Counted from the stretch's first letter, positions 19,138-34,011 are shown. The stretch is DNA of 34,629 nucleotides from a virus (IMGVR_UViG_3300023174_000405:1-34629); one strand, 5' to 3'. Numbers and translations: made by a program. The notes: a model not told the origin generated them from the sequence alone.

Positions 19138-20127
19138 ATGTCATCATTCAAAAAGTTATCCAAGGCCGATGTAACAACAGTATCCTACGCTGCTAATAAG
19201 CGATGGGACTTGACTTATAATGGTACTCCTAACGATGATTATGCTGTTGGTTTTTTAGGTAGAAATAGATCATTTAATGATTTTAAAACTACTACTACAA
19301 ATGGTCAATATCAAGCACTAGTATATGCCTCAGTAAACCATTTATTTTATCAACAATATTCTTCTAGTTTAGATACAGGTTCACTAATGTTTAATGTAAA
19401 CACTTATGAATCTGCTTCTCAACAACGTCCTACTGCTTCATATTTTAATTATAATACTAATCCTTTATTTATACCATATTTACTTACAGGTTCAAACCAA
19501 ACTGTAGGAGTATTAAGTATAAATCAAAATATATATGGTTCTAAAATATTACCAAATAGTTTTCAAATATCATCCTCAGCTGGTGATATTATTAAAGATG
19601 ATGGAAATGGAAATTTATATGAAATTTCTCAAGCTCAATCTCAATATGTTGATTTAAATTGGGTAACATTAAATTATATCCAAACTGGTAGTTTAACAGA
19701 ACCTGGAGTATTTTTTATAGGGAATATATTTTATGCTCATGGAATAGCGATTTTTTCATCAGGTAGTTATACAAGCTTTATTACAGGAGGTACTACTAAA
19801 TCAATATCATTTCAAAATGAACATATCATTTATGAAAATGAAGTACGTTGTATTATAAAAGAAAGCGACTATAATTTAACATATAATCCTACCATACTAA
19901 AATACAAAGGACAATATATAACATCAGATAGTAATGGATATACATTAACTGGTTCATTTGATACAACAGTTAAAGATTTTGCTACTGGATCAGCATTTCA
20001 ACCATACGTTACAACAATAGGATTATATAATGATGATAATGATTTATTAATGGTAGCTAAATTAGGTAAACCAATAGTACTATCATCAGACACAGATATG
20101 ACATTTATTGTCAAATACGATACTTAA
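19138..20127 (+). CDS. Tail structural protein, paralogue B (329 aa)
   Basis: A paralogue of the preceding gene with the same length and the same C-terminal pattern (PYVTTIGLYNDDNDLLMVAK, then LGKP). The N-terminal and middle parts have diverged strongly. Such pairs often form hetero-oligomeric fibre or decoration parts, or one copy is free to change specificity. It starts 3 bases after the first copy and ends the structural operon. The following gene is a GIY-YIG nuclease with different base composition, so this is a boundary between modules. Confidence 0.65.
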   Translation: MSSFKKLSKADVTTVSYAANKRWDLTYNGTPNDDYAVGFLGRNRSFNDFKTTTTNGQYQALVYASVNHLFYQQYSSSLDTGSLMFNVNTYESASQQRPTASYFNYNTNPLFIPYLLTGSNQTVGVLSINQNIYGSKILPNSFQISSSAGDIIKDDGNGNLYEISQAQSQYVDLNWVTLNYIQTGSLTEPGVFFIGNIFYAHGIAIFSSGSYTSFITGGTTKSISFQNEHIIYENEVRCIIKESDYNLTYNPTILKYKGQYITSDSNGYTLTGSFDTTVKDFATGSAFQPYVTTIGLYNDDNDLLMVAKLGKPIVLSSDTDMTFIVKYDT

Positions 20128-20137
20128 AAACAGTTTT

Positions 20138-20578
20138 ATGAATTGGTTATATGAATATGTCCCATTACGGGACGACTTTACAACAGACGATTATGGTTTT
20201 ATTTATAAAATCACAAATCTAGAATCCAACAAATTTTATATTGGTCGAAAATCATTCGTCCATAATAAGAAGAAAAAACTCACCAAAAAGGAAATAGCTG
20301 AACAAACTGGTCCTGGCCGTCGCTCAACTACTAAAGTAGAACAAATCGACAGCGGTTGGCGCAAATACTGGGGTTCATCTAAGGAATTATTAGCTGATGT
20401 TAAATTGCTAGGCGAAGATAAATTCGAACGCGAAATATTAAAGTTTTGTCCTACCAAAAAGCAACTCACATTTTACGAAATACAATACCAAATACAACAC
20501 TCAGTATTATTTACTGACACATACAACGATAATATACTAGGTAAGTTCTTTAGAAAAGACTTTGTTACGGCAAAATAA
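20138..20578 (+). CDS. GIY-YIG family endonuclease
   Basis: This is a probable DNA endonuclease. Residues 20-23 (GFIY) and 34-36 (YIG, within KFYIGRKSF) form the family's signature strands, followed by a basic stretch (NKKKKLTKKE). A W-R-K-Y-W-G-S motif comes next, and Glu114 in TFYEIQYQI matches the catalytic/metal Glu helix. The 146-aa length covers the nuclease with little extra. An in-frame TTG at 20108 could extend it by ten residues, but that would overlap the previous gene, and the ATG at 20138 gives a normal gap. Base composition (many CGC, GAC and GGC codons) differs from the tail genes. It may be a free-standing homing endonuclease inserted between the tail and primase modules, or a resident repair nuclease. 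Confidence 0.8.
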   Translation: MNWLYEYVPLRDDFTTDDYGFIYKITNLESNKFYIGRKSFVHNKKKKLTKKEIAEQTGPGRRSTTKVEQIDSGWRKYWGSSKELLADVKLLGEDKFEREILKFCPTKKQLTFYEIQYQIQHSVLFTDTYNDNILGKFFRKDFVTAK

Positions 20579-22335: not shown

Positions 22336-23091
22336 ATGATCAAACTACTAGACCTATTATTAGAAGCATCAGCTCAACCAAAAGCTATATTTTTAGCTGG
22401 TCCTGCTGGCTCTGGTAAAACATTTGTAACTAAACAAATCGTCCCATCCAATTTAACAGTAATTAACGTAGATGATACCTATGAAGAGCTATTAAAAGCT
22501 GCTGGATTAGGTATGAAAATATCTGATTTTAGTCAAGATCAGTTATCACAAGCTGCCAAATTAATGGGTCAAGCTCAAAAAGCTACTAAAGAAAAATTTG
22601 CACAAATGTCTGCTGCTAAAAATAATATAGTAATAGATGGTACAGGTGCTGCTAGTAAACCATTACTTAAGAAAAAACAAGAACTAGAAGCATTAGGATA
22701 TGACACAATGATGTTAATGATTTGGGTTTCACCTTACACATCACTCAAACGTAATGCATCTAGAGATAGAGCATTACCTCCAGGTATTGTATTAAAAACA
22801 TGGGTTGGTGTTAATCAAAATATGGATACATATAAAGATACTTTTGGTGATAAATTTGTATTAGTAAATAATGATCCTGAAGGTAAAGCAGAATATAATC
22901 CTGATTATGTTAAACGAATGTTTTTTAATACTGTGAAAGGCAGTGGTAAAGAATATACTGCTGATGAACGTGCTAAAAAAGAACAAGAAAACCAAATATT
23001 AAACGATACAATAGCTCATTTAATAGAAATAACACCAGAATTTACAACTATAGAAGATGCTAAAGCTAAAATAAATAATTTTGTAAAATGA
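22336..23091 (+). CDS. Zeta-toxin/polynucleotide-kinase-like P-loop kinase with capsid-targeting N-terminus
   Basis: Residues 1-10 (MIKLLDLLLE) followed by ASAQ match the amphipathic targeting peptide and L-x-E/A cleavage pattern of T4 internal head proteins. The rest is a P-loop kinase. GPAGSGKT at 22-29 is Walker A. VINVDD at 42-47 sits where zeta toxins and related kinases have their acidic substrate-binding residues. NIVIDGTG at 97-104 is a Walker B-like strand. An Arg-containing lid (RNASRDRALPPG) lies near residues 136-147. The substrate is unknown; zeta toxins phosphorylate UDP-sugars, and relatives act on nucleic acids or small molecules. If packaged, it would act in the host at the start of infection. 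The stop overlaps the next ATG (ATGA). Confidence 0.78.
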   Translation: MIKLLDLLLEASAQPKAIFLAGPAGSGKTFVTKQIVPSNLTVINVDDTYEELLKAAGLGMKISDFSQDQLSQAAKLMGQAQKATKEKFAQMSAAKNNIVIDGTGAASKPLLKKKQELEALGYDTMMLMIWVSPYTSLKRNASRDRALPPGIVLKTWVGVNQNMDTYKDTFGDKFVLVNNDPEGKAEYNPDYVKRMFFNTVKGSGKEYTADERAKKEQENQILNDTIAHLIEITPEFTTIEDAKAKINNFVK

Positions 23092-25541
23092 ACTTAGGAC
23101 AATACTTAGCTAATATATTATTAGAAGCAGAAGATCAACCAACAATAGCATTATTTCCAGGTGCATTTAAACCACCTCACAAAGGACATGTTGATGTTAT
23201 TGAAAAGCTATTAAAAGCAGCTGATCAAGTAGTAGTACTGGTATCACCATCAACACGTGAAGGTGTTACTGCTGATGAAAGTATTGCTGTATGGGATTTA
23301 TATAAAAATAAATTTAATGGCTCTGTTGAAATAAAAGTATCTGCTGACGCTAGTCCTGTTAAAGAAGTATACAACGTAGTTAAAGATAATCCTGACACTA
23401 ATTTTTTAGTAGCATTTGGTAAAGGTGAAATGGATCGCTATAAGAGCATTGAAAAATATCCAAATGTAAAAGTATTTGATGCTGGTGCAATTGAAGGAGT
23501 TAGTGCAACTAACTTGCGTATGGCTTTAGCTCAAAAAAATGAGGAAGATATAGCAAAATATTTACCTGATGGAATATCAGTAGATGAATTTCTATCTGCA
23601 TTAAATAACAAACCAGAAGCAAAACCAGAAGAAATACCTGCAGAACCTACTCCTGAACAACCATTACAAGAATCACCTCCAATTAATTTTGAAGATGATG
23701 CTTACCAAGATTATGTAACACAAAACCGTCCTAAAATAGAGAAAGCAGCAGCTGTATTCAATCTACCAATAGATGATATGGAATATGCTTTTAATGGTGG
23801 TACTGAAACAGTATTAAATGATGATATATGGTCTAAGCTACAAAATAGCAAATCATATAAAATGAAAACATTGGATGATGCTATTCAACATTCACTGAAA
23901 TTAGGTATAAATCCAAAACCATATATCGATCAAATCAAAGCTGGTAAGGATATGCCATTACCACTTGTATTATGTTATGGTCAGGATAAGTATTATTTGG
24001 TGGGCGGAGAAGTGGTATTATCTTTATTTAGAGCATTAGGTTCAATCCCTACTGTATTGCAGGGTACATTGAATCTACAAACTAAACAATTACATCAACC
24101 AGTTGATCTTGGAGAAGGTTTGATTAGAGAATATTCAGTTGGAGTTATCAATAAATTAATACAAAAATTTAAGCAAGAAGATCCTGAATTAACGGATGAT
24201 GAAATAAAAAAAGTAATAAAGCGCTTTGATCAAATAAAAGATAATGTAGATCAAAAAGACATATTAAAATATTCTTGGGATGATCTAGTAGACACAGTAT
24301 CTTCAATCGAACCTAAACGTATTAAAGCAGGTAAAATAAATGATGGTGAAGTAGATAATGCTGATTTGGTTTATAACCAAAATAATATAAGGGTATATAA
24401 AGCAGGGGATAAAAAAGCATGCATAAAATATGGTCACGGATATACATTCTGTATATCAGCTCGTGGGACAGGAAATGAATATGCTAACTATAGAGTAGGT
24501 GATGAAGATAAGGATGCTTCTATAACTTATTTTGTGTTTGATGATAGTAGACCTAGTGGTAAATCTGAATATGGTAAATTTTTTGATCCAACCCACTTAT
24601 TAGTAGTAATGGTTGGAGAAAATAATAATGGTTATCTTATTACAGAAGCCGATAATTCTCAAGATACTAGTGATTGGTATGAAACTTTTGAAGAAGCCGC
24701 ATCTACATATCCACAACTTAAAGGATTAAAAGATGTATTACAATACGAACCACCATCTGAGGACGATATTGATGTTAAAATTAAATATTTAGACCAGGAA
24801 AAAGATAAAGCTTTAGATAACTATAAGTATAAAAATGAACCAATACCAGGACTTCCGTATGTTGATAAATCACTCGCAATTGCTCTTTTAAAAGGAGATC
24901 AAAAAATATTTTGGTATCAAATGGTTGATCAAACTACTGGCAAATATATAATGCCAAACATGATGGGGTTATATAAGGATGAAAAACAAGCGGCAATTGA
25001 TATGCATAATACAGAAGTAAGATTTAATTACAACCCAGGATATAATGTTAAAATAACATATAAACAACTTCCTGTTGATGAAGAAATGAAAAAATATTTA
25101 CTAGGTCTTATTGAATTATCAAATTCATATGATAAAAAAATAGCTAGAGTAAAATTACAATCATTAAACGAAGGTTTAAATACACCAAACGATAAACAAC
25201 TATTAAAGAAATTTATCGGGTTTGCTATTAAAGAATTAGGAATACAAAAACCACCAACATCTCTTACATTATCAAGAGATAATAACATGGCTAAAGAGAT
25301 GCATTCATTTGGTTCATTTAATCCTAATAACGATAAAATATGGTTGTATGTTAAAAACCGCAACATGGCTGATTTGTTACGTACATTAGCACATGAATTA
25401 GTACATCGTAAGCAAGCTGAAGAAGGTAGAATTGATTATAATAGTGGTGAAACTGGTAGTGAAATTGAAAATGAAGCAAATGCACAAGCAGGTGTATTAT
25501 TAAGAAAATTCGGCAAACAAAACGAAGAAATATATCAATAA
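23088..25541 (+). CDS. Multidomain capsid-cargo polyprotein: nucleotidyltransferase + ParB-like + YGxGxxWC domain + zincin
   Basis: Four modules follow a targeting-type N-terminus (LANILLE/AE, E13). Module 1 (14-195) is a cytidylyltransferase-like nucleotidyltransferase with FPGAFKPPHKGH (HxGH at 31-34) and VSATNLR (138-144). Module 2 (196-348) has a ParB/Srx-like core, LVLCYGQDKYYLVGGEVV then LSLFRALGSIPTVLQG. Module 3 (349-695) contains KYGHGYTFCIS and has a paralogue in the 875-aa protein at 29952. Module 4 (696-817) is a zincin with HELVH at 769-773 and a probable third ligand Glu near 794-796. The junctions carry LQE/S (E195), IRE/Y (E348) and LNE/G (E695), all fitting the prohead protease rule [LI]-x-E. 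Such tripeptides are common by chance, but their coincidence with domain edges is notable. It overlaps both neighbouring genes by 4 bases or 1 base. Confidence 0.75.
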   Translation: MNLGQYLANILLEAEDQPTIALFPGAFKPPHKGHVDVIEKLLKAADQVVVLVSPSTREGVTADESIAVWDLYKNKFNGSVEIKVSADASPVKEVYNVVKDNPDTNFLVAFGKGEMDRYKSIEKYPNVKVFDAGAIEGVSATNLRMALAQKNEEDIAKYLPDGISVDEFLSALNNKPEAKPEEIPAEPTPEQPLQESPPINFEDDAYQDYVTQNRPKIEKAAAVFNLPIDDMEYAFNGGTETVLNDDIWSKLQNSKSYKMKTLDDAIQHSLKLGINPKPYIDQIKAGKDMPLPLVLCYGQDKYYLVGGEVVLSLFRALGSIPTVLQGTLNLQTKQLHQPVDLGEGLIREYSVGVINKLIQKFKQEDPELTDDEIKKVIKRFDQIKDNVDQKDILKYSWDDLVDTVSSIEPKRIKAGKINDGEVDNADLVYNQNNIRVYKAGDKKACIKYGHGYTFCISARGTGNEYANYRVGDEDKDASITYFVFDDSRPSGKSEYGKFFDPTHLLVVMVGENNNGYLITEADNSQDTSDWYETFEEAASTYPQLKGLKDVLQYEPPSEDDIDVKIKYLDQEKDKALDNYKYKNEPIPGLPYVDKSLAIALLKGDQKIFWYQMVDQTTGKYIMPNMMGLYKDEKQAAIDMHNTEVRFNYNPGYNVKITYKQLPVDEEMKKYLLGLIELSNSYDKKIARVKLQSLNEGLNTPNDKQLLKKFIGFAIKELGIQKPPTSLTLSRDNNMAKEMHSFGSFNPNNDKIWLYVKNRNMADLLRTLAHELVHRKQAEEGRIDYNSGETGSEIENEANAQAGVLLRKFGKQNEEIYQ

Positions 25542-26182
25542 TGATAAAGTTAGCTGACATATTAAAAGAATTAAATATCCGCCCCAAACCAGAATTAGGA
25601 CAAGGAGCAGAACAAACTGCGTATCCTTATATAAACAATCCTGATTACGTATTAAAGAAATATAATAGATCTGCACATCGCGGTAAAACTATAGCTGATA
25701 AAATAGAAAAACTTAGAGCATTATCTTTAAAATATCCTGATTTAGTTACTAAAGTCAAAGTAGTAAGTAAAGATGCTTACACACAGGAGAAGTTAGATAC
25801 TAACACGCTAAGTAAAGACATAGATGCTGAATGTATTAAGGTATGGAATCAATTAATAAAGGACTATAAAAAAGCTTATAATTCTAATTTAAAGACTAGA
25901 GTAACGGATTATATAAAACAAAGAATAGATTATGGTTTTTGGGATAAACCTTCAAAGATAAAAACACAGCAAGACTTAGATGATTTAATGGATGATATGA
26001 CATATTATATATATCATACTAAGTTTTTAGTAGATCCATATGTGTATGAAAACTACACAAAAAATTCTGAACTAGTTAAAAAATTAAAACCTATAATGGA
26101 TAATGACGAGCTAAATGACGATCCTCACAATGATAATTTAGGTTATGATAAACAAGGAAATATAAAAGTACTCGATATATAA
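25541..26182 (+). CDS. Minimal protein-kinase/APH-fold protein with capsid-targeting N-terminus (213 aa)
   Basis: MIKLADILKE/L fits the targeting and L-x-E pattern. The kinase fold is read from three elements. LGQGAEQTAY (19-28) resembles a glycine-rich loop. VLKKY supplies the lysine (K39 or K40). D-P-H-N-D-N-L-G (194-201) matches the catalytic loop D-x-H-x-x-N of aminoglycoside-phosphotransferase-type kinases. VLDI supplies the metal Asp (D212), exactly 13 residues after N199, as in that family. The protein stops one residue later, so the usual helical C-lobe after the DFG position is missing. The stop is followed by a non-coding A-rich gap, so no simple frameshift explains it. Either a compact active kinase or a substrate-binding pseudokinase is possible. 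Targets are unknown. Confidence 0.6.
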   Translation: MIKLADILKELNIRPKPELGQGAEQTAYPYINNPDYVLKKYNRSAHRGKTIADKIEKLRALSLKYPDLVTKVKVVSKDAYTQEKLDTNTLSKDIDAECIKVWNQLIKDYKKAYNSNLKTRVTDYIKQRIDYGFWDKPSKIKTQQDLDDLMDDMTYYIYHTKFLVDPYVYENYTKNSELVKKLKPIMDNDELNDDPHNDNLGYDKQGNIKVLDI

Positions 26183-26197
26183 AATAAAAATAAAGTT

Positions 26198-26665
26198 ATG
26201 TATACAATTTACTCTGATATGGATGGGGTATTAGTTGATTTTGAAAAAGGTTATTACGATTTAACAGGTGTTCACACAAAACAATATGTTAAAGGTGATG
26301 CTGCATTTTGGCAACCAATAGAGGAAGAAGGGGCCGCTTTTTGGGCTAATCTACCTTGGATGCCAGATGGTCAAACGTTATGGCGCTATATTAAACGCTA
26401 CAAACCAAACATTTTATCTTCCCCATCACAGGATCCTTCATCTAAAGTAGGTAAGGAAGCATGGTGTAAAATGCATATTAATAATCAATATAAGAAATTA
26501 TATTTCTATCAGCGTGCCTATAAACAAATGTTTGCAGGTCCTAATAGAATATTAATTGATGATATGGAACAAACCATTAGAGAATGGAACGCGGCTGGTG
26601 GTATAGGAATACACCATACATCAGCAGATAATACAATTTCACAACTTAAAAAATTAGGGTTATAA
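26198..26665 (+). CDS. HAD-family 5'(3')-deoxyribonucleotidase-like phosphatase
   Basis: This is a probable 5'-nucleotidase acting on deoxynucleoside monophosphates. Motif I is SDMDGVLVDF with D7 (nucleophile) and D9. Motif II is the ILSSPS segment (S74/S75). The metal-binding motif IV is ILIDDMEQTIREW (D121/D122), followed by a small-domain strand GIGIHHTSA, the arrangement of NT5C-type nucleotidases. The length of 155 aa is slightly below the usual 180. Unlike its neighbours it has no targeting-type N-terminus, as HAD motif I starts within six residues of Met1, so it should act in the infected cell, probably in nucleotide metabolism. It overlaps the next gene by 1 base (TAATG). Confidence 0.8.
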   Translation: MYTIYSDMDGVLVDFEKGYYDLTGVHTKQYVKGDAAFWQPIEEEGAAFWANLPWMPDGQTLWRYIKRYKPNILSSPSQDPSSKVGKEAWCKMHINNQYKKLYFYQRAYKQMFAGPNRILIDDMEQTIREWNAAGGIGIHHTSADNTISQLKKLGL

Positions 26666-27286: not shown

Positions 27287-27571
27287 ATGGATAGTAACAT
27301 TTGGTCAGTATTAATCACAGCAATAACAGTTTTGGGTGGTACTACAGCTTTCCGCTATTATGAAAAACGAGCAATACATAGAGAACGTGATGATGATTTT
27401 ATTCGTCATGATTGCAAAGATCGTATCTCTAAATTAGAAGCATTACTAGAAGCATCAGCTAGAGAAAAAGACGATCTACGTAATCTAGTATTAAAATTAA
27501 CTGGAGAAGTAGCAGAACTACGTGTTAAAGTTGATTTCTTATCTACTGAAAATGCTAAATTGAAAAAGTAA
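27287..27571 (+). CDS. Membrane-anchored coiled-coil protein, possible holin/spanin-like (94 aa)
   Basis: Residues 5-22 (IWSVLITAITVLGGTTAF) form one membrane helix. They are followed by a positively charged stretch (RYYEKRAIHRER) and a ~55-residue coiled coil (ISKLEALLEASAREKDDLRN, then LVLKLTGEVAELRV). The topology fits an inner-membrane spanin or a small holin-like protein, but no lysis gene is adjacent, so another membrane-tethered role is possible. Internal LLE/A at about residue 56 matches the prohead-protease tripeptide but is probably a coincidence of the coiled coil. It overlaps the next gene by 1 base. Confidence 0.6.
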   Translation: MDSNIWSVLITAITVLGGTTAFRYYEKRAIHRERDDDFIRHDCKDRISKLEALLEASAREKDDLRNLVLKLTGEVAELRVKVDFLSTENAKLKK

Positions 27572-27900
27572 TGTTTAACATGATTAAATTAATTAATTTA
27601 CTAAACGAAGTAAAAGAAACATTTGAAAATTTTGCTGCTACTCGTGGTAAAGGTGCTGCTAAAATAGCAACAACTGCTGAAGAAAAAGGTGGATTAGCAT
27701 TATTAACGTGGCATCATTTTAAAGTAAAAGCTCCATATTATAAAAAAGCCGAAGAAGGTAAATTTGATAAAGAAGCAGCTATAAAAGAGTTTGAAAAAAC
27801 ACTAAAAAGCATATCATTAAATATGACTCAAATTGAATTTCAACGTGAAGTAGGTCGTATGGAAGTATTAGGCGAATTACTAATTCGAGATAAAAAATAA
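27571..27900 (+). CDS. Small putative capsid-cargo protein (109 aa)
   Basis: The N-terminus MFNMIKLINLLNE/V carries the targeting-type peptide with L-x-E. Translation could begin at ATG 27571 (overlapping the previous stop) or at ATG 27580, which would give exactly the MIKL start seen in sister genes. The next gene has the same MFNMIKL arrangement, so the choice is open. The body is a helical domain (GAAKIATTAEEKGGLALLTW, then HHFKVKAPYYKKA) that I recall from other marine T4-like phage proteins of unknown function. It is basic and compact, with no catalytic motif. Confidence 0.65.
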   Translation: MFNMIKLINLLNEVKETFENFAATRGKGAAKIATTAEEKGGLALLTWHHFKVKAPYYKKAEEGKFDKEAAIKEFEKTLKSISLNMTQIEFQREVGRMEVLGELLIRDKK

Positions 27901-27901
27901 T

Positions 27902-28141
27902 ATGTTCAACATGATTAAATTAACCGAATTATTACTGAATGAAGGACCAGCAGAATATCCAGCTGATCATCAACCAGGAATGAGAGTCACTAAAGGTGGC
28001 TCTATGTGTGCTAATTGTGAATATTGGGTTGCTGAAGGTAATAAATGTAACAGTAAATATTGGTTAAAATGGCATGATGGGGATGAAAATATACCTTATC
28101 CTGCTGATGAATATTGTTGTAATTGGTGGCATTCAAAATAA
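27902..28141 (+). CDS. Small Cys-rich putative capsid-cargo protein, metal or Fe-S site (79 aa)
   Basis: After the targeting peptide (MIKLTELLLNE/G) comes a ~60-residue domain with C36-x2-C39, C49 and a C72-C73 pair. It includes MCANCEYWVAEGNKC and ADEYCCNWWHSK. The C-x2-C...C...C layout with aromatic residues resembles small high-potential iron-sulfur-like or zinc-binding domains, but the spacing does not match a HiPIP precisely. It begins 1 base after the previous gene. An alternative start is ATG 27911. A packaged redox or metal-binding protein is an inference. Confidence 0.65.
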   Translation: MFNMIKLTELLLNEGPAEYPADHQPGMRVTKGGSMCANCEYWVAEGNKCNSKYWLKWHDGDENIPYPADEYCCNWWHSK

Positions 28142-28147
28142 ATAATT

Positions 28148-28549
28148 GTGATTAAACTAACCGAAATATTAGACGAATTATTAACTGAAAAGCTCTGTAA
28201 AAAAGGTAGAGCATATTATAATCGTCGTAGAGCTGATGGAGAAAAACCATCAGCTTATCTTTCTGGTCGTGCTGTTAAAGTATGTAAAGGTTTAATGGAA
28301 GAAGAAATAGACGAATCACTTCGTGATTGGTTTAAAAAAGAAGATTGGGTTCGTATTGATACAGCAGGTAACATAACTGGTCCTTGTGGTACAATGAAAA
28401 AAGGTAATAAAACAACACGCTGTTTACCTCGTGCTAAAGCAAATAGCTTAACTAAAGCTGAACGTGCTGCTACATCAAAGAAAAAAGCAGCAGCAGATAA
28501 ACAATTTGTACCAAATACAAAAAAAGCTAAAGTAAAACTTAATAAATAA
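28148..28549 (+). CDS. Basic two-module putative capsid-cargo protein (DUF5872-like C-terminal part)
   Basis: The gene starts with GTG. The N-terminus reads MIKLTEILDELLTE/K, which supports this start because it reproduces the targeting peptide of the neighbours. Module 1 (15-56) is basic (KKGRAYYNRRRADGEKPSAY, then LSGRAVKVCKG). Module 2 (57-133) has LRDWFKKEDWVRIDTAGNIT, GPCGTMKK and RCLPRAKANSLTKAERAATS. I recall this segment as a widespread phage module similar to DUF5872. The junction has I-D-E/S (E56), again [LI]-x-E. The strong positive charge suits a protein packed with DNA inside the head. Two or three Cys per module may bind metal. Confidence 0.65.
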   Translation: MIKLTEILDELLTEKLCKKGRAYYNRRRADGEKPSAYLSGRAVKVCKGLMEEEIDESLRDWFKKEDWVRIDTAGNITGPCGTMKKGNKTTRCLPRAKANSLTKAERAATSKKKAAADKQFVPNTKKAKVKLNK

Positions 28550-28552
28550 AGT

Positions 28553-29299
28553 ATGAAACTTAAAGAATTAATAAAACAAATTATTAAGGAATCAATTAAT
28601 GAAAATGAAGTTGATTATTTTATAGACAGAGATGGAAACGAATTTCAAACTCTTGATGTAAATTATCTACAATACCCAGGCAACGTAACAGTAAAATATG
28701 TCGGTAGTAGTGATCCTATGGAATATAAAGGTAATTTTGAAGCTGATTTAAAAACAGGTATTATTAAGCGTTTAGGTAGTAAAATTAATGAAGCCTTTTT
28801 TATTGGTGAAGGTAAAACTATTGAATGTGGAAAATGTGGATGGAGATGGGATTTAGAAGATGGTGGAGATAATCCATACCTTTGTCATAAATGTAACTAT
28901 GATAATAGCTACAGATATAATGATGAAATAGATGAATATGATGTTGATGAAGATAATTTATATGAAGTAAAAGATTTCATTAAATTTATGAAGGAATATA
29001 AAACATTCTTAACTGAAGCATCATGTGATTGTGTAATGGAAGCCGAATATAAGGGTCGTAAAGTACAATTGGGTAAACCAATGCAAGGCGACATCAAGAA
29101 ATTCAAAGTATACGTTAAAAATAACAAAGGTAAAGTTGTAAAAGTTAATTTTGGATTTGGCGGAAAATCAGCTAAAGGTAAACGTATGGTGATTAAAGCT
29201 AAAAACCCAAAACGCCGTAGCGCATACCGTAAAAGACATCACTGTGATAATCCAGGACCACGTTGGAAAGCAAATTATTGGTCTTGTCGTAAATGGTAA
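28553..29299 (+). CDS. Three-module putative capsid-cargo protein with zinc ribbon and internal targeting-like peptide (248 aa)
   Basis: The N-terminus LKELIKQIIKE/S is targeting-type. Module 1 (14-80) is a small beta domain ending KINE/A. Module 2 (81-155) has a zinc ribbon, C92-x2-C95 and C111-x2-C114 (ECGKCGWRWD, LCHKCNYDN), and an acidic stretch. It ends in MKEYKTFLTE/A (146-156), which closely resembles the T4 IPIII targeting peptide MKTYQEFIAEA. Module 3 (156-248) is very basic, with KGKRMVIKAKNPKRRSAYRK, RHHCD and NYWSCRKW, a domain I recall from many phages right after such peptides. The layout suggests fusion of once-separate cargo genes. Function is unknown; DNA or RNA binding is plausible from charge. 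Confidence 0.7.
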   Translation: MKLKELIKQIIKESINENEVDYFIDRDGNEFQTLDVNYLQYPGNVTVKYVGSSDPMEYKGNFEADLKTGIIKRLGSKINEAFFIGEGKTIECGKCGWRWDLEDGGDNPYLCHKCNYDNSYRYNDEIDEYDVDEDNLYEVKDFIKFMKEYKTFLTEASCDCVMEAEYKGRKVQLGKPMQGDIKKFKVYVKNNKGKVVKVNFGFGGKSAKGKRMVIKAKNPKRRSAYRKRHHCDNPGPRWKANYWSCRKW

Positions 29300-29301
29300 C
29301 T

Positions 29302-29955
29302 ATGATAAAATTAATTGACATATTAAAAGAGGGCGCTTATGATTCTATGACTAGAAAAATAGTCACTGATATCATGAGAGAATGGAAAGACCAATATATG
29401 GATGAGCAAGGTGATTTGACATTTGATACTGATTATAATTTAACAGACGCTAAAGGTCGTGATTATGAATTTGAATTATACGCTGTATTAAGAGTTAAAA
29501 AGTCATCATCACAAAAATATATTGTTGATGGTGGTGTTGATCAATTAGAAGATCCTCCATATATGGTAATTACATTTCAGGTTGATCCAAGAGATTTACC
29601 TCAAAAATGGGAAACAATATATTTTGATTTAACAGATGTTATTAGACATGAATTAGAACATTTTACTCAAGAAGGTATAAATGTTATTCCTTCTAAAGAA
29701 ATGGGTGATGATGAAATAATGCGTAATCTAATTAAGATGAAATTAGCTCCAAATGCTGAATATTTCAAATTAGAAAGAGAAGTAGATGCTATGTTACAAG
29801 GTATGTACTTAAAAGCTAAAAAAACACGTACACCATTTAAAGACGTAATTAACGATTATTTTAATAAAGTAGGATTAAGAAAACAAGAAAGACAAGACAT
29901 ATTAGATGTGTGGTCTACTAGATTAAAAGCACTAAATTTACCTCCTATACAATGA
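29302..29955 (+). CDS. Zincin metalloprotease-like putative capsid-cargo protein (217 aa)
   Basis: I take ATG 29302 as the start because it gives MIKLIDILKE/G, the targeting peptide of the family; an in-frame ATG at 29293 would add three residues and overlap the previous gene. DVIRHELEHFTQEG holds the zinc-protease motif HExxH (H116-E-L-E-H120). YFKLEREVDAML supplies a probable third ligand Glu at 158-160. The family is unassigned, but similar proteins occur in T4-like marine phages. If packaged, it could cut host proteins after injection or act in the head. The stop overlaps the next ATG (ATGA). It is the second zincin of the island. Confidence 0.75.
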   Translation: MIKLIDILKEGAYDSMTRKIVTDIMREWKDQYMDEQGDLTFDTDYNLTDAKGRDYEFELYAVLRVKKSSSQKYIVDGGVDQLEDPPYMVITFQVDPRDLPQKWETIYFDLTDVIRHELEHFTQEGINVIPSKEMGDDEIMRNLIKMKLAPNAEYFKLEREVDAMLQGMYLKAKKTRTPFKDVINDYFNKVGLRKQERQDILDVWSTRLKALNLPPIQ

Positions 29956-32579
29956 GAGCAATAGACAAGTTTATATTACACGTAGTACATAACATTTTTC
30001 CTTTGAATGAATATTCGGAAGGTGAATTGAAACGTTTAATGGCTCAATTTAGAGAAGAAGCAGATGACCTAAATATAAACATTAGTGATGATACACTCAA
30101 AACATATATCCAGCGTTTTGATGCTATAAAAAACTCACCTAAAATACAGGAAAAAGATTTACGCAAATATACTTTATCTAAACTAATTAAGTTAGTAACG
30201 TCATCAGCAGGAGCAGAAGCACCAGATGATGAAGAAGATCAAACACCAGATGTTGTATACCAAGATGGTGGTGTTACTATTTGGAATGGTTCTAAAGAAG
30301 GTAATTGTATTAATTATGGTGCTGGCGAAGCATGGTGTATAACTAGAGGATCATATGGTAGTTATCGTTATGATTCATCTAAAGGTTATCCAACATTTTA
30401 TTTAGCTAAAAATGCTAACATATCAGATAGTGATAAATTAAGCTTTGTTGCTATTCAAGTTAGAGATGTAGAAGATGAAAATAAAAAATATGTCTATACT
30501 AATAGAGAAAATAGACCATATGAATCATCTCCAATGTCTTTTAGCAGATTAACATCTGAAATACCTTGGTTAAATGATATTCCAAATATAAGATCTATAT
30601 TACGTTATATTCCTTTAAATAATAAAGAAAAAGTCACTCAAAAATATAAAAGAGATTCTATTAGTATTAGAGAATGGGTTAAATTACCATTTGATACTAA
30701 AAAACAATATTTAGTTATTAAAAAAGGTGGAACATTCTTTAGTGACGTTACTAATGATGTATTCGTATCTGACTATTTACCAAAATACCCTCAGATAGCA
30801 GAATTTATTGCTATTACTCCTGATATAACAAAACCAGAACTTTTATTAAGAAATTTAGATAAGTTTAGTAATCAAGATAGAAAATCAATAACAGCTAATT
30901 TACAACAACCAGTTAATTTAAAATGGCTCCCATCAGAACTATTTCCATTTGATGTTAAAAAATTACTAACAGTACTAAATAAATGGGATTTACCATCTAC
31001 TGATAGAATATATGTTACAAAAAACGGTGAAGCTATCGTTAAATTAAAATTTGGAGATGACATATCTGTAGGTGTATACACAGCGGAAGACGATTACCCA
31101 AATATTAAGTTAAATCAACGTACAGCAAAATATCTACTTGATTATCCTGAATTAGATAAATTACCCTTTAATAGCTTACTTAAATTAGCTACTGATGGTA
31201 TTGTAAATAAAGAATTTATTAATAAAATTATTGATAAAGCCAAATCAGAAGATAATTCAGCTATTATAGTTAAGAAAGTAGAAGATGGTGAAATATTAGT
31301 TGATGCTAATTCATTCTCGTCATATAAAATACAAGATGGTAAAATAACTAAAGTACCATTTACTGATGAAGATGTACAAGCAGTATTAAGTGCTGAAAAA
31401 GATAATACATCCTTCCAACAGGGTGTTGTTAATATAGTAAAAGACTCAGCAGAAAATTATGATAATTTACCACCTACTATTGATAAAGACGCTTTTATAT
31501 CTATTATAAAATCAACTCCATATGATAATAGAACATTTTTTTCTCGTGCTGTAAGTGGAGTACAAGTAATTCTTATACCTGACGGGGAAAGTGCCTATAC
31601 TTTATTTACAAGAAAAGTAGGAACTGAAGGATTATATAGTTTTACTACAGGACTGGATTATGGAAAAGTGGGTGATTGGAGAGATAGAGATGCTAACGAT
31701 AATATGGACGATGGAGCATGGAGATCATATTTTAATTATTTGAGAAATGAAAATATAGTTTATGAAGGAAATCAATTACAACAATGGTTTAGAGGAGGAT
31801 ATAGTGTAGATGCTAAAAAAGCTTGGTTTAGATCACAACCACCAATGTCTCCAACAGATCGATATGCTGTAGCAATAGGAGCAAATGGTATTAATTATGT
31901 AGTAAATAAAGCTAACCCAAGAGAATCACTTAAATTATCTGATTCAGGTAAATTAGTTAAAGCAAATATACCTACAGCATTGGCTCGCCAATTAACAGGA
32001 GCTACACCAGATGCCGCTACACCAATAGCAGCCGCTGCCGCTACAGGTAGAAGAGGTAGACCAGCAGGTGTACCTAATACTCCACGTGCCGCTGCACCAG
32101 TAGCAGCAGGAGGTGGTAATATAGGTGTAGCTGAAGTGATGGATGAAACGGGATTAACTAATGCTTTTATGCGTTTACCACGTGCTGATTATAGACGATT
32201 AAATGTAGATAATGCAACACGTGTTGCTCCAAATGGTGACAGAGGTGCTGCTCGTCGTAACAATCAATTAGGAGGAGCAGGTAGTGTACAACGAGTTATT
32301 AGTATTGGACCTAGTAAAATATATCTTATTCGTTTAGCAAATCAACAAATAATAGCATCTATAAACATCCAACCTGGTAATAGAAATTATATATTACTAC
32401 CAGATGGTACAGCGGTAACATTAAATTCACCAGCTGAATTAATGCAGGCACTACAACGTCGTAACTTAGCTGAAGTACGTAACTATATGGTGCGTGAATA
32501 CATTACTAATAATCCACAACATTTGGATGAAGTACGTGAATTGATAAGACAACACGTTAATGAAACCACAAATCAATAA
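29952..32579 (+). CDS. Large putative capsid-cargo protein with YGxGxxWC domain and AT-hook-like linker (875 aa)
   Basis: The N-terminus (FILHVVHNIFPLNE/YS, E20) is a targeting-type helix ending in L-N-E. Residues 21-~185 are paralogous to module 3 of the 817-aa protein. Both have Y-S, then a helix with FDAIKN or FDQIKD, then DVVYQDGG or DLVYNQNN, then YGAGEAWCIT or YGHGYTFCIS, then a TFY/TYF strand. A long middle region (about 200-690) is mixed alpha/beta and unassigned. An Ala/Pro/Gly linker holds GRRGRPAG (about 698-705) with the R-G-R-P core of AT-hooks. The C-terminal ~150 residues form a separate basic domain (LPRADYRRLNVDNATRV) preceded by VMDE/T. I do not know the function; injected DNA-associated protein is the working idea. 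Confidence 0.65.
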   Translation: MRAIDKFILHVVHNIFPLNEYSEGELKRLMAQFREEADDLNINISDDTLKTYIQRFDAIKNSPKIQEKDLRKYTLSKLIKLVTSSAGAEAPDDEEDQTPDVVYQDGGVTIWNGSKEGNCINYGAGEAWCITRGSYGSYRYDSSKGYPTFYLAKNANISDSDKLSFVAIQVRDVEDENKKYVYTNRENRPYESSPMSFSRLTSEIPWLNDIPNIRSILRYIPLNNKEKVTQKYKRDSISIREWVKLPFDTKKQYLVIKKGGTFFSDVTNDVFVSDYLPKYPQIAEFIAITPDITKPELLLRNLDKFSNQDRKSITANLQQPVNLKWLPSELFPFDVKKLLTVLNKWDLPSTDRIYVTKNGEAIVKLKFGDDISVGVYTAEDDYPNIKLNQRTAKYLLDYPELDKLPFNSLLKLATDGIVNKEFINKIIDKAKSEDNSAIIVKKVEDGEILVDANSFSSYKIQDGKITKVPFTDEDVQAVLSAEKDNTSFQQGVVNIVKDSAENYDNLPPTIDKDAFISIIKSTPYDNRTFFSRAVSGVQVILIPDGESAYTLFTRKVGTEGLYSFTTGLDYGKVGDWRDRDANDNMDDGAWRSYFNYLRNENIVYEGNQLQQWFRGGYSVDAKKAWFRSQPPMSPTDRYAVAIGANGINYVVNKANPRESLKLSDSGKLVKANIPTALARQLTGATPDAATPIAAAAATGRRGRPAGVPNTPRAAAPVAAGGGNIGVAEVMDETGLTNAFMRLPRADYRRLNVDNATRVAPNGDRGAARRNNQLGGAGSVQRVISIGPSKIYLIRLANQQIIASINIQPGNRNYILLPDGTAVTLNSPAELMQALQRRNLAEVRNYMVREYITNNPQHLDEVRELIRQHVNETTNQ

Positions 32580-33157: not shown

Positions 33158-33547
33158 ATGGAAAATAACAATCCAATAATAGGACAATTTATATCAACTT
33201 TGTTTGCATCACGCACACAAGCACACGTATTTCATCTTCAAACAACAGGAGAAGGATCGTTTGCTGCACATTCAGCACTAAACGCATACTACGATGAAAT
33301 CGTAGGTATAACTGATGGTATTGTAGAGTCATATCAAGGAAAATATGGTATAATCAGTGGATATGGTAACATAGCACTACAAGAATTTCAAAATTGCGAA
33401 GGTGTAATTGCATACTTTGAAATGCTTTGTATGTATGTTGAAAAAAGTAGACAAATGATTTGTCAAGATTCATACATTCAAAATCAAATTGACGAAGTTG
33501 TTGCTTTAATTAATTCTACACTCTATAAATTACGTTTTTTAAGATGA
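33158..33547 (+). CDS. Dps/ferritin-like protein (129 aa)
   Basis: The segment FHLQTTGEGSFAAHSALNAY followed by YDEIVGITDGIVESYQGK resembles the first two helices of Dps proteins. H26, H38, D53 and E57 reproduce the spacing of the Dps ferroxidase residues (12, 15 and 4 apart, as H51, H63, D78, E82 in E. coli Dps). The further Asp of that site, at H+4, is Asn42 here. The length is short for Dps (about 160) but allows a four-helix bundle. I recall similar phage proteins annotated as DUF5856. There is no targeting-type N-terminus. Possible roles are iron or oxidative protection of phage DNA, or a structural helical bundle. It overlaps the next gene by 4 bases. Confidence 0.6.
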   Translation: MENNNPIIGQFISTLFASRTQAHVFHLQTTGEGSFAAHSALNAYYDEIVGITDGIVESYQGKYGIISGYGNIALQEFQNCEGVIAYFEMLCMYVEKSRQMICQDSYIQNQIDEVVALINSTLYKLRFLR

Positions 33548-34011
33548 TAAAGTTAGTAAATATATTACTAGAGAATCAATTTTCAGAGTATTCAAATAGT
33601 GCTTTAGCAGATATGATTGTTAATCTTTCACGATTTGAAGGCAATGAAGAACTTATTGCTTCTGTAAAAGATGAATTAGAAAGCCGCAAAAACAAAATGT
33701 CTGAAAAATTAGACCCTGTAGGTCACGAAGATAGTGACATCAACAACGATGGTAAGGTAAATAAAACAGATAAATACCTTGCTAATCGTCGTAAAGCAAT
33801 AGCTAAAAATATTAAAGAAGGTGATGATCACGAAGTAGCAATGGCACAAGCTAGTCTAAAATCAATTATTAAATCCTCTGCTCAACTAATGAATAAATTA
33901 GGAAATATGGAGCGTGATATACCAGGATGGATTCAAGATCACATAACAAACGCTGAAAACTATATTGACCAAGCGGCTCAAGGATTCCATGAATTAAATG
34001 ATAATGAATAA
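33544..34011 (+). CDS. Two-module putative capsid-cargo protein with EF-hand-like loop (155 aa)
   Basis: MIKLVNILLE/N is targeting-type. Module 1 contains a calcium-loop-like sequence D-I-N-N-D-G-K-V-N-K-T-D (65-76) followed by KYLANRRKAIAK, resembling dockerin/EF-hand loops. It is bounded by I-K-E/G (E92). Module 2 (93-155) is a helical domain (MAQASLKSIIKSSAQLMNKL, then IPGWIQDHITNAENYIDQAA), a segment I recall as a stand-alone C-terminal module in many marine phage proteins. The start codon overlaps the stop of the Dps-like gene (ATGA), and the end overlaps the next gene by 14 bases. Function is unknown. Confidence 0.65.
   Translation: MIKLVNILLENQFSEYSNSALADMIVNLSRFEGNEELIASVKDELESRKNKMSEKLDPVGHEDSDINNDGKVNKTDKYLANRRKAIAKNIKEGDDHEVAMAQASLKSIIKSSAQLMNKLGNMERDIPGWIQDHITNAENYIDQAAQGFHELNDNE

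Follow-up and report, generated by a model that had tools for sequence, protein, structure and literature searches.

A T4-like phage gene for a modular polyprotein with prohead-protease-type sites at its joints, a candidate precursor of several head cargo proteins

The stretch of DNA analysed here (the window) is a 34.6-kb fragment (34,629 nucleotides) of a T4-like myovirus, in which baseplate wedge, tail, primase and exonuclease genes come before the locus of interest. Judged by the baseplate wedge protein, the closest cultured relatives are immuto-group Flavobacterium phages and Microcystis phage Mel-JY01. At 23088..25541 lies an intact ORF for an 817-aa polyprotein, exactly of the length given in the initial annotation. 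Translation and homologues resolve it into an N-terminal capsid-targeting-like peptide (CTS) followed by four modules, NT, PB, YG and ZN1; this ORF and the features of the locus described below are all on the + strand. The peptide, MNLGQYLANILLE (aa 1-13, 23088..23126), ends at LLE13/A, and E13 is invariant among 8 homologues. NT (aa 14-195, fold 17-173; 23127..23672) is a HIGH-superfamily nucleotidyltransferase that carries HxGH at residues 31-34, as had been claimed, and matches Pfam PF01467, TIGR00125 and, in a PDB fold search, the NMNAT/PPAT fold (Z about 14). No specific enzyme model, whether for NMN or for pantetheine phosphate, is matched above its curated cut-off, and the fold search with the whole protein returned matches to this domain only. 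A Pro/Glu-rich disordered linker (aa 175-203, 23610..23696) with the site LQE195/S (codon 23670-23672) spans the boundary to PB (aa 196-348, 23673..24131), a module delimited by its profile and by AlphaFold gaps. PB had been called 'ParB-like'. A separate module it is, but Pfam, NCBIfam and PDB sequence searches gave no significant family or PDB match in support of a ParB identity; its motif and secondary-structure order, as read by eye, suggest a possible ParB/sulfiredoxin-like fold.

The next linker (aa 332-348, 24081..24131) contains two sites, LGE343/G (codon 24114-24116) and IRE348/Y (codon 24129-24131), and is followed by YG (aa 349-695, 24132..25172). The motif for which this module was named is present, in the form YGxGxxFC between two invariant cysteines (C445-IKYGHGYTF-C455) and not in the form YGxGxxWC initially given, which belongs to a paralogous 875-aa gene at 29952. 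Folded alone, YG gave a confident model (pLDDT 87.6) with no significant match in PDB or BFVD fold searches. Its C-terminal part (aa 561-691, 24768-25160) looks like a separate alpha/beta subdomain with a long helix (665-691) and is unaligned in the 875-aa paralogue. A short gap (aa 694-696, 25167..25175) holds the site LNE695/G (codon 25170-25172), with E695 invariant in 29 sequences. The last module, ZN1 (aa 696-817, 25173..25538), is a zincin-like metallopeptidase: HELVH is found at 769-773 as described before and is invariant together with the downstream E794/E796, and phrog_87 metallo-protease is matched at E 0.004. In PDB, ZN1 matched other HExxH proteins at no better than E 0.8, and these weak hits were dismissed as chance.

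LLE13/A, LQE195/S, IRE348/Y and LNE695/G, the four sites originally proposed to separate the domains, are all in place, and LGE343/G is a fifth that had gone unlisted and shares its linker with IRE348. Product lengths of 182, 153, 347 and 122 aa had been correctly predicted (computed masses 19.9, 17.1 or alternatively 16.6, 40.0 and 13.9 kDa). The polyprotein contains 8 [LI]xE tripeptides, compared with 9.2 +/- 2.7 in shuffled sequences; as anticipated, several are expected by chance, so the count alone says nothing. Five of the eight, in agreement with the claim that sites coincide with domain edges, lie at the helix end or in inter-domain gaps, which make up 7.6% of residues (binomial P about 1e-4). 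AlphaFold2, run with 29 aligned relatives (mean pLDDT 78.8, pTM 0.42), predicted an N-terminal helix (3-13) and low-confidence gaps (pLDDT <50) at 175-203, 332-347 and 694-696. In this model E13 stands at the end of the helix, and E195, E343/E348 and E695 are inside or adjoin the gaps. The other long predicted gap (408-420) is the only one without [LI]xE, and the remaining tripeptides (520, 676, 716) sit in predicted strands or helices. None of the predicted folds extends across E195, E348 or E695, and the proposal thus withstands the test that the initial annotation had set for it. Both motif and predicted location fit the substrate rule of prohead proteases, a cut after L/I-X-E in an unstructured region. 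Internal translation starts were also considered as a source of separate domains. Just one TTG (aa 345) is near an in-chain joint, and the purine-rich stretch beside it is made of the site codons themselves; this source was judged unlikely, since the genes here have no clear Shine-Dalgarno sites.

Similar N-termini are common in the neighbourhood. A peptide of the type MIKLxx(I/L)LxE, as long as the T4 signal MKTYQEFIAE/A (from the T4 record), opens seven genes of the window and nine of the 124-kb contig G005 of a relative. As in a T4-type CTS, MNLGQYLANILLE/A would be a short helix (3-13) at the N-terminus that ends in [LI]xE. Immediately upstream, a P-loop kinase gene (Zeta-toxin/AAA_33-like, 22336..23091) begins with MIKLLDLLLE/A. 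Downstream, CTS-type genes are found at 25541..26182 (MIKLADILKE/L), 27571..27900 (MFNMIKLINLLNE/V), 27902..28141 (MFNMIKLTELLLNE/G), 28148..28549 (MIKLTEILDELLTE/K) and 33544..34011 (MIKLVNILLE/N). A 248-aa gene (28553..29299) has an internal CTS-like FIKFMKEYKTFLTE/ASCDC ahead of a phrog_7595 module; this is a second polyprotein-like gene, and several relatives have similar joints. A third class of targeting-like peptide, roughly FxKxWWxExLxLxE, occurs both N-terminally and inside fused chains (L037 aa 15-32, L058 aa 188-203, L153 aa 465-480). Elsewhere in the window, ORFs at 417-896 and 20108-20578 are possibly of GIY-YIG/T5orf172 type, as seen by eye in translations only.

Relatives were collected starting from six close ones (L001-L006) and then by ten module profiles, which were run over all ORFs of 225 sequences. 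More than 100 related ORFs were obtained, with about 20 architectures of interchangeable modules, including NT-PB-YG-ZN1, NT-PB-ZN1, NT-ZN1, NT-ZN1-HAD, PB-ZN1, YG-ZN1, POLB-NT-PB-YG-ZN1 and POLB-NT-ZN1-ZN2. This establishes the modular architecture. All four modules are kept in L001 and L002, YG is absent from L003, L005 and L006, and L004 has no YG and an added HAD nucleotidase. A 1358-aa polyprotein (L166:3140-7216) has tandem YG modules joined at LINE/TSINE/YSN. In L002, L003 and L006 a Pol-beta-type NTase module (aa 1-299) without an N-terminal signal of its own is placed ahead, and the targeting-like peptide is internal, after TLNE or TLSE/TNLGRYLASLILE. This internal peptide goes unexplained by a strictly N-terminal signal and counts against the targeting reading.

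Joints were counted in 78 representative multi-module ORFs, in a window from -12 to +8 of the projected module start. [LIM]xE was present at 121 of 134 joints (90%) compared to 18% of matched background windows; as homologues share ancestry and are not independent, P values overstate the case. In mutually dissimilar joint windows the motif was found in about 33 of 39, and most joints counted as misses were near-misses (VAE, VQE, VTE, FNE, LAE). ZN1-HAD joints do not count as evidence, since the IYE/IFE found there is also present in ORFs ending at that point and doubles as a natural C-terminus; when HAD joints are left out, 102 of 113 joints carry the motif. A scan of all 20 residues at P1 revealed only Glu as strongly enriched (0.90 vs 0.18). 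Asp was at 0.10 (background 0.30), and Cys also rose (0.14 vs 0.005), probably owing to a conserved NCGC-type sequence after the site in one family. At P3, Leu, Ile and Met alone stand out. Position and conservation of the sites are seen most sharply in an anchored alignment of 26 distinct sequences of the PB joint: Glu occupies P1 in 26/26, Leu P3 in 25/26 and Ser P1' in 24/26, P2 and P4-P16 are variable, and the linker before the site may consist of Pro/Glu-rich repeats or, at the other extreme, of unrelated sequence. Fixed P1 and P3 positions amid free surroundings are the trace expected if a protease recognising P3 and P1 has been the selecting agent. Inside modules, [LI]xE occurs at 0.48 of expectation and in MIKL-type single genes at 1.02; since CTS-type single genes show no depletion, we count this as weak support only. 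On the level of sequence, the evidence argues very strongly for a precursor built of modules that meet at protease-type sites.

Genes that encode the modules singly, the homologues to which the initial annotation had pointed for comparison, do exist, and their targeting-like N-terminal peptides end at the identical site. The 875-aa gene (29952..32579) has YG as its first module and no zincin; it starts with MRAIDKFILHVVHNIFPLNE/YSEG, and its BLAST match to the 817-aa protein (E 1e-15) begins exactly at LNE/YS, equivalent to IRE/YS. MRAIDKFILHVVHNIFPLNE, the first 20 residues, is almost fixed across relatives; it differs from MIKLxxILxE and represents a second targeting-like class. Likewise, a stand-alone metallopeptidase-like module, ZN2 (29293..29955, MVTMIKLIDILKE/GAYDS), corresponds by BLAST to the module at the C-terminus of the immuto polyprotein; there the alignment (E 3e-46) starts at VMAE/GRYDT, equivalent to LKE/GAYDS. 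The immuto polyprotein, a homologue of 907 aa, follows the same logic, with sites at LAE286/A287 and MAE702/G703 and a joint ahead of its ZN1 module. In PB-first and YG-first ORFs elsewhere, the N-terminal peptide ends at the same alignment position as the joint site. ZN1 stands alone in Synechococcus phage (cyanophage) B23 with the CTS-like start MNYKQFLRE/S, and a HAD-family deoxyribonucleotidase, encoded here by a gene without CTS (26198..26665), in L004 and others is attached to the C-terminus of the polyprotein. Modules and genes are thus equivalent. Exchange is visible at the DNA level as well. The near relative L005 misses exactly the YG module and has a single join, GAAGGTTTA, at the site LGE343/G; up to this join its DNA is 89% identical to the window on the PB side (last 300 nt) and 92% on the ZN1 side. 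Both YG-flanking joints in the window share GAAGGTTT (Glu-Gly-Leu), of which the L005 join contains one copy, YG being excised there from between the two stretches of site codons (GAA-GGT-TTR).

A search of the 34.6-kb window alone found no prohead protease gene, which is attributed to the record being a fragment. In three relatives (G002, G004, G005) and in the immuto phage, the contig with the polyprotein also encodes a gp21-type protease and a gp23-type MCP; the N-termini of MCP and protease bear LLE/S, LLE/G or LTE. In T4, the cut by gp21 follows L/I-X-E, and ten N-terminal residues of IPIII (CTS) are enough for packaging (PMC9026906). T4 IP1-3 are injected and inhibit type IV restriction enzymes (PMC12373910). 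From the T4 precedent and this co-occurrence we infer actual packaging and cleavage; retention, injection and cargo function are inferred as well. The 13-residue N-terminal helix would act like the T4 CTS and draw the whole chain into the prohead core. Once activated, the gp21-type protease would cut after [LI]xE, removing the targeting peptide, and the same enzyme would cut the linkers at E195, E343 and/or E348, and E695. Four separate proteins would remain in the head: a nucleotidyltransferase of NMNAT-like type, a domain that is possibly ParB-like, YG and the zincin metallopeptidase. As T4 internal proteins do, the pieces would then leave the head along with the DNA and have an early role, possibly directed against host defence. 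Between phages, modules would be gained, lost and swapped as cassettes, with the site codons staying at the joint. The initial proposal, one targeting peptide heading multi-domain head cargo that a protease frees, is supported by the predicted structure and by the separate-gene homologues, and we put the probability that a polyvalent, T4-style precursor of head cargo is encoded here and is cut by the prohead protease at about 0.8. That a widespread strategy is involved, in which one targeting peptide loads an effector chain that the prohead protease frees and site codons bound the cassettes, seems reasonably likely. NadR unites an NTase and a P-loop kinase, which jointly make NAD+ (PMC9503650); NT and the kinase at 22336 could likewise form a head-delivered NAD+ salvage pair, though this is less likely than not.

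We consider it unlikely that the embedded zincin, ZN1, cuts the chain in place of the prohead protease. This is the published model for zincin-containing polyvalent proteins and for DdrB of phage P1 (Iyer et al. 2017, PMC5512222), and the invariance of HELVH and the downstream Glu speaks for it. It fits poorly, however, because the same [LI]xE sites end targeting-like peptides in many genes without a zincin, the YG-first gene at 29952 among them; moreover, ZN1 occurs alone behind a CTS-like start in cyanophage B23, and L/I-X-E is the published specificity of gp21 (PMC9026906). Still a little less probable is that the sites are scars of gene fusion, left uncut when genes with their own targeting peptides lost stop and start. 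Whole remnants of internal targeting peptides do exist (KIFSKEWWKESLGLHE/SPP at E203 of L058, ETFSKEWWTEVLQLHE/SPP at E480 of L153), and the clean loss of a module between two site copies in L005 would suit such an origin. A dead scar, however, should not preserve just the two positions read by the protease, and at the joints P1 Glu and P3 Leu are fixed with P2 free, while the old targeting peptide and linker have diverged beyond recognition. It is very improbable that the protein is simply a multidomain enzyme that acts in the host cytoplasm once expressed, with LLE13 and the linker motifs there by coincidence. Known phage enzymes of cytoplasmic NAD+ salvage do include NadM/NadR-like NTases (PMC9503650), and chance LxE is common, as the shuffled sequences indicate; position and conservation of the sites, and the N-terminal peptide shared with many unrelated neighbours, speak against coincidence. 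Of these readings we prefer that of a head cargo precursor which the prohead protease cuts.

Head-delivered effectors are normally found gene by gene. If joint sites free many effectors per chain, counts of head cargo in T4-like phages of environmental bacteria have been too low, and cargo boundaries could be read simply from sequence by the [LI]xE joint rule. Capsid maturation would then couple head assembly to the arming of the virion. The architecture also suggests a natural modular system that loads several proteins into a phage head by one signal, and it makes testable which protease arms polyvalent proteins.

Among enzymes, NT resembles adenylyltransferases of the NadM/NadR/CoaD type in its HxGH and PPAT/NMNAT fold (Z about 14), but has SATNLR (139-144) where these usually have ISSTxxR. 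Several cuts per chain by a prohead protease are known from T4 gp22 and gp67 and from the SPN3US gp53 propeptide; there, however, the fragments come from scaffold or propeptide, mostly do not stay in the head and are not separate folded cargo. DarA, DdrB and DarB of phage P1 are also head-packaged; the packaging signal of DarB has been shown to be N-terminal, and processing is reported for DarA (PMC9024508). The protease of P1 is of a different type, and that text does not describe multi-site release of several cargo domains. Polyvalent proteins (Iyer et al. 2017, PMC5512222), which their authors liken to polyproteins, are similarly large, combine unrelated activities including zincin and NTase domains, and are predicted to enter the host with the DNA. 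At least two unrelated domains per chain are found here as well (NT, PB, YG and ZN1, up to POLB-NT-PB-YG-ZN1), as is a zincin-like HExxH with a downstream Glu (ZN1). For polyvalent proteins, release by the embedded zincin has been proposed, whereas here the joints carry the prohead-protease motif and exchange takes place at the site codons. The literature searched, with most subscription journals outside its reach, held no description of prohead-protease-cut effector polyproteins. T4 IPI-IPIII and Alt share with the present system a short N-terminal peptide ending in L/I-x-E, a gp21-type protease and non-conserved cargo. Each T4 internal protein, however, is one cargo, whereas here one targeting peptide heads several modules with a site at each joint. 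Since no text found describes multi-cargo chains cut at the joints by a prohead protease, the proposed combination of the logic of T4 internal proteins with that of polyvalent proteins, a multi-cargo chain cut at every joint, appears to be new.
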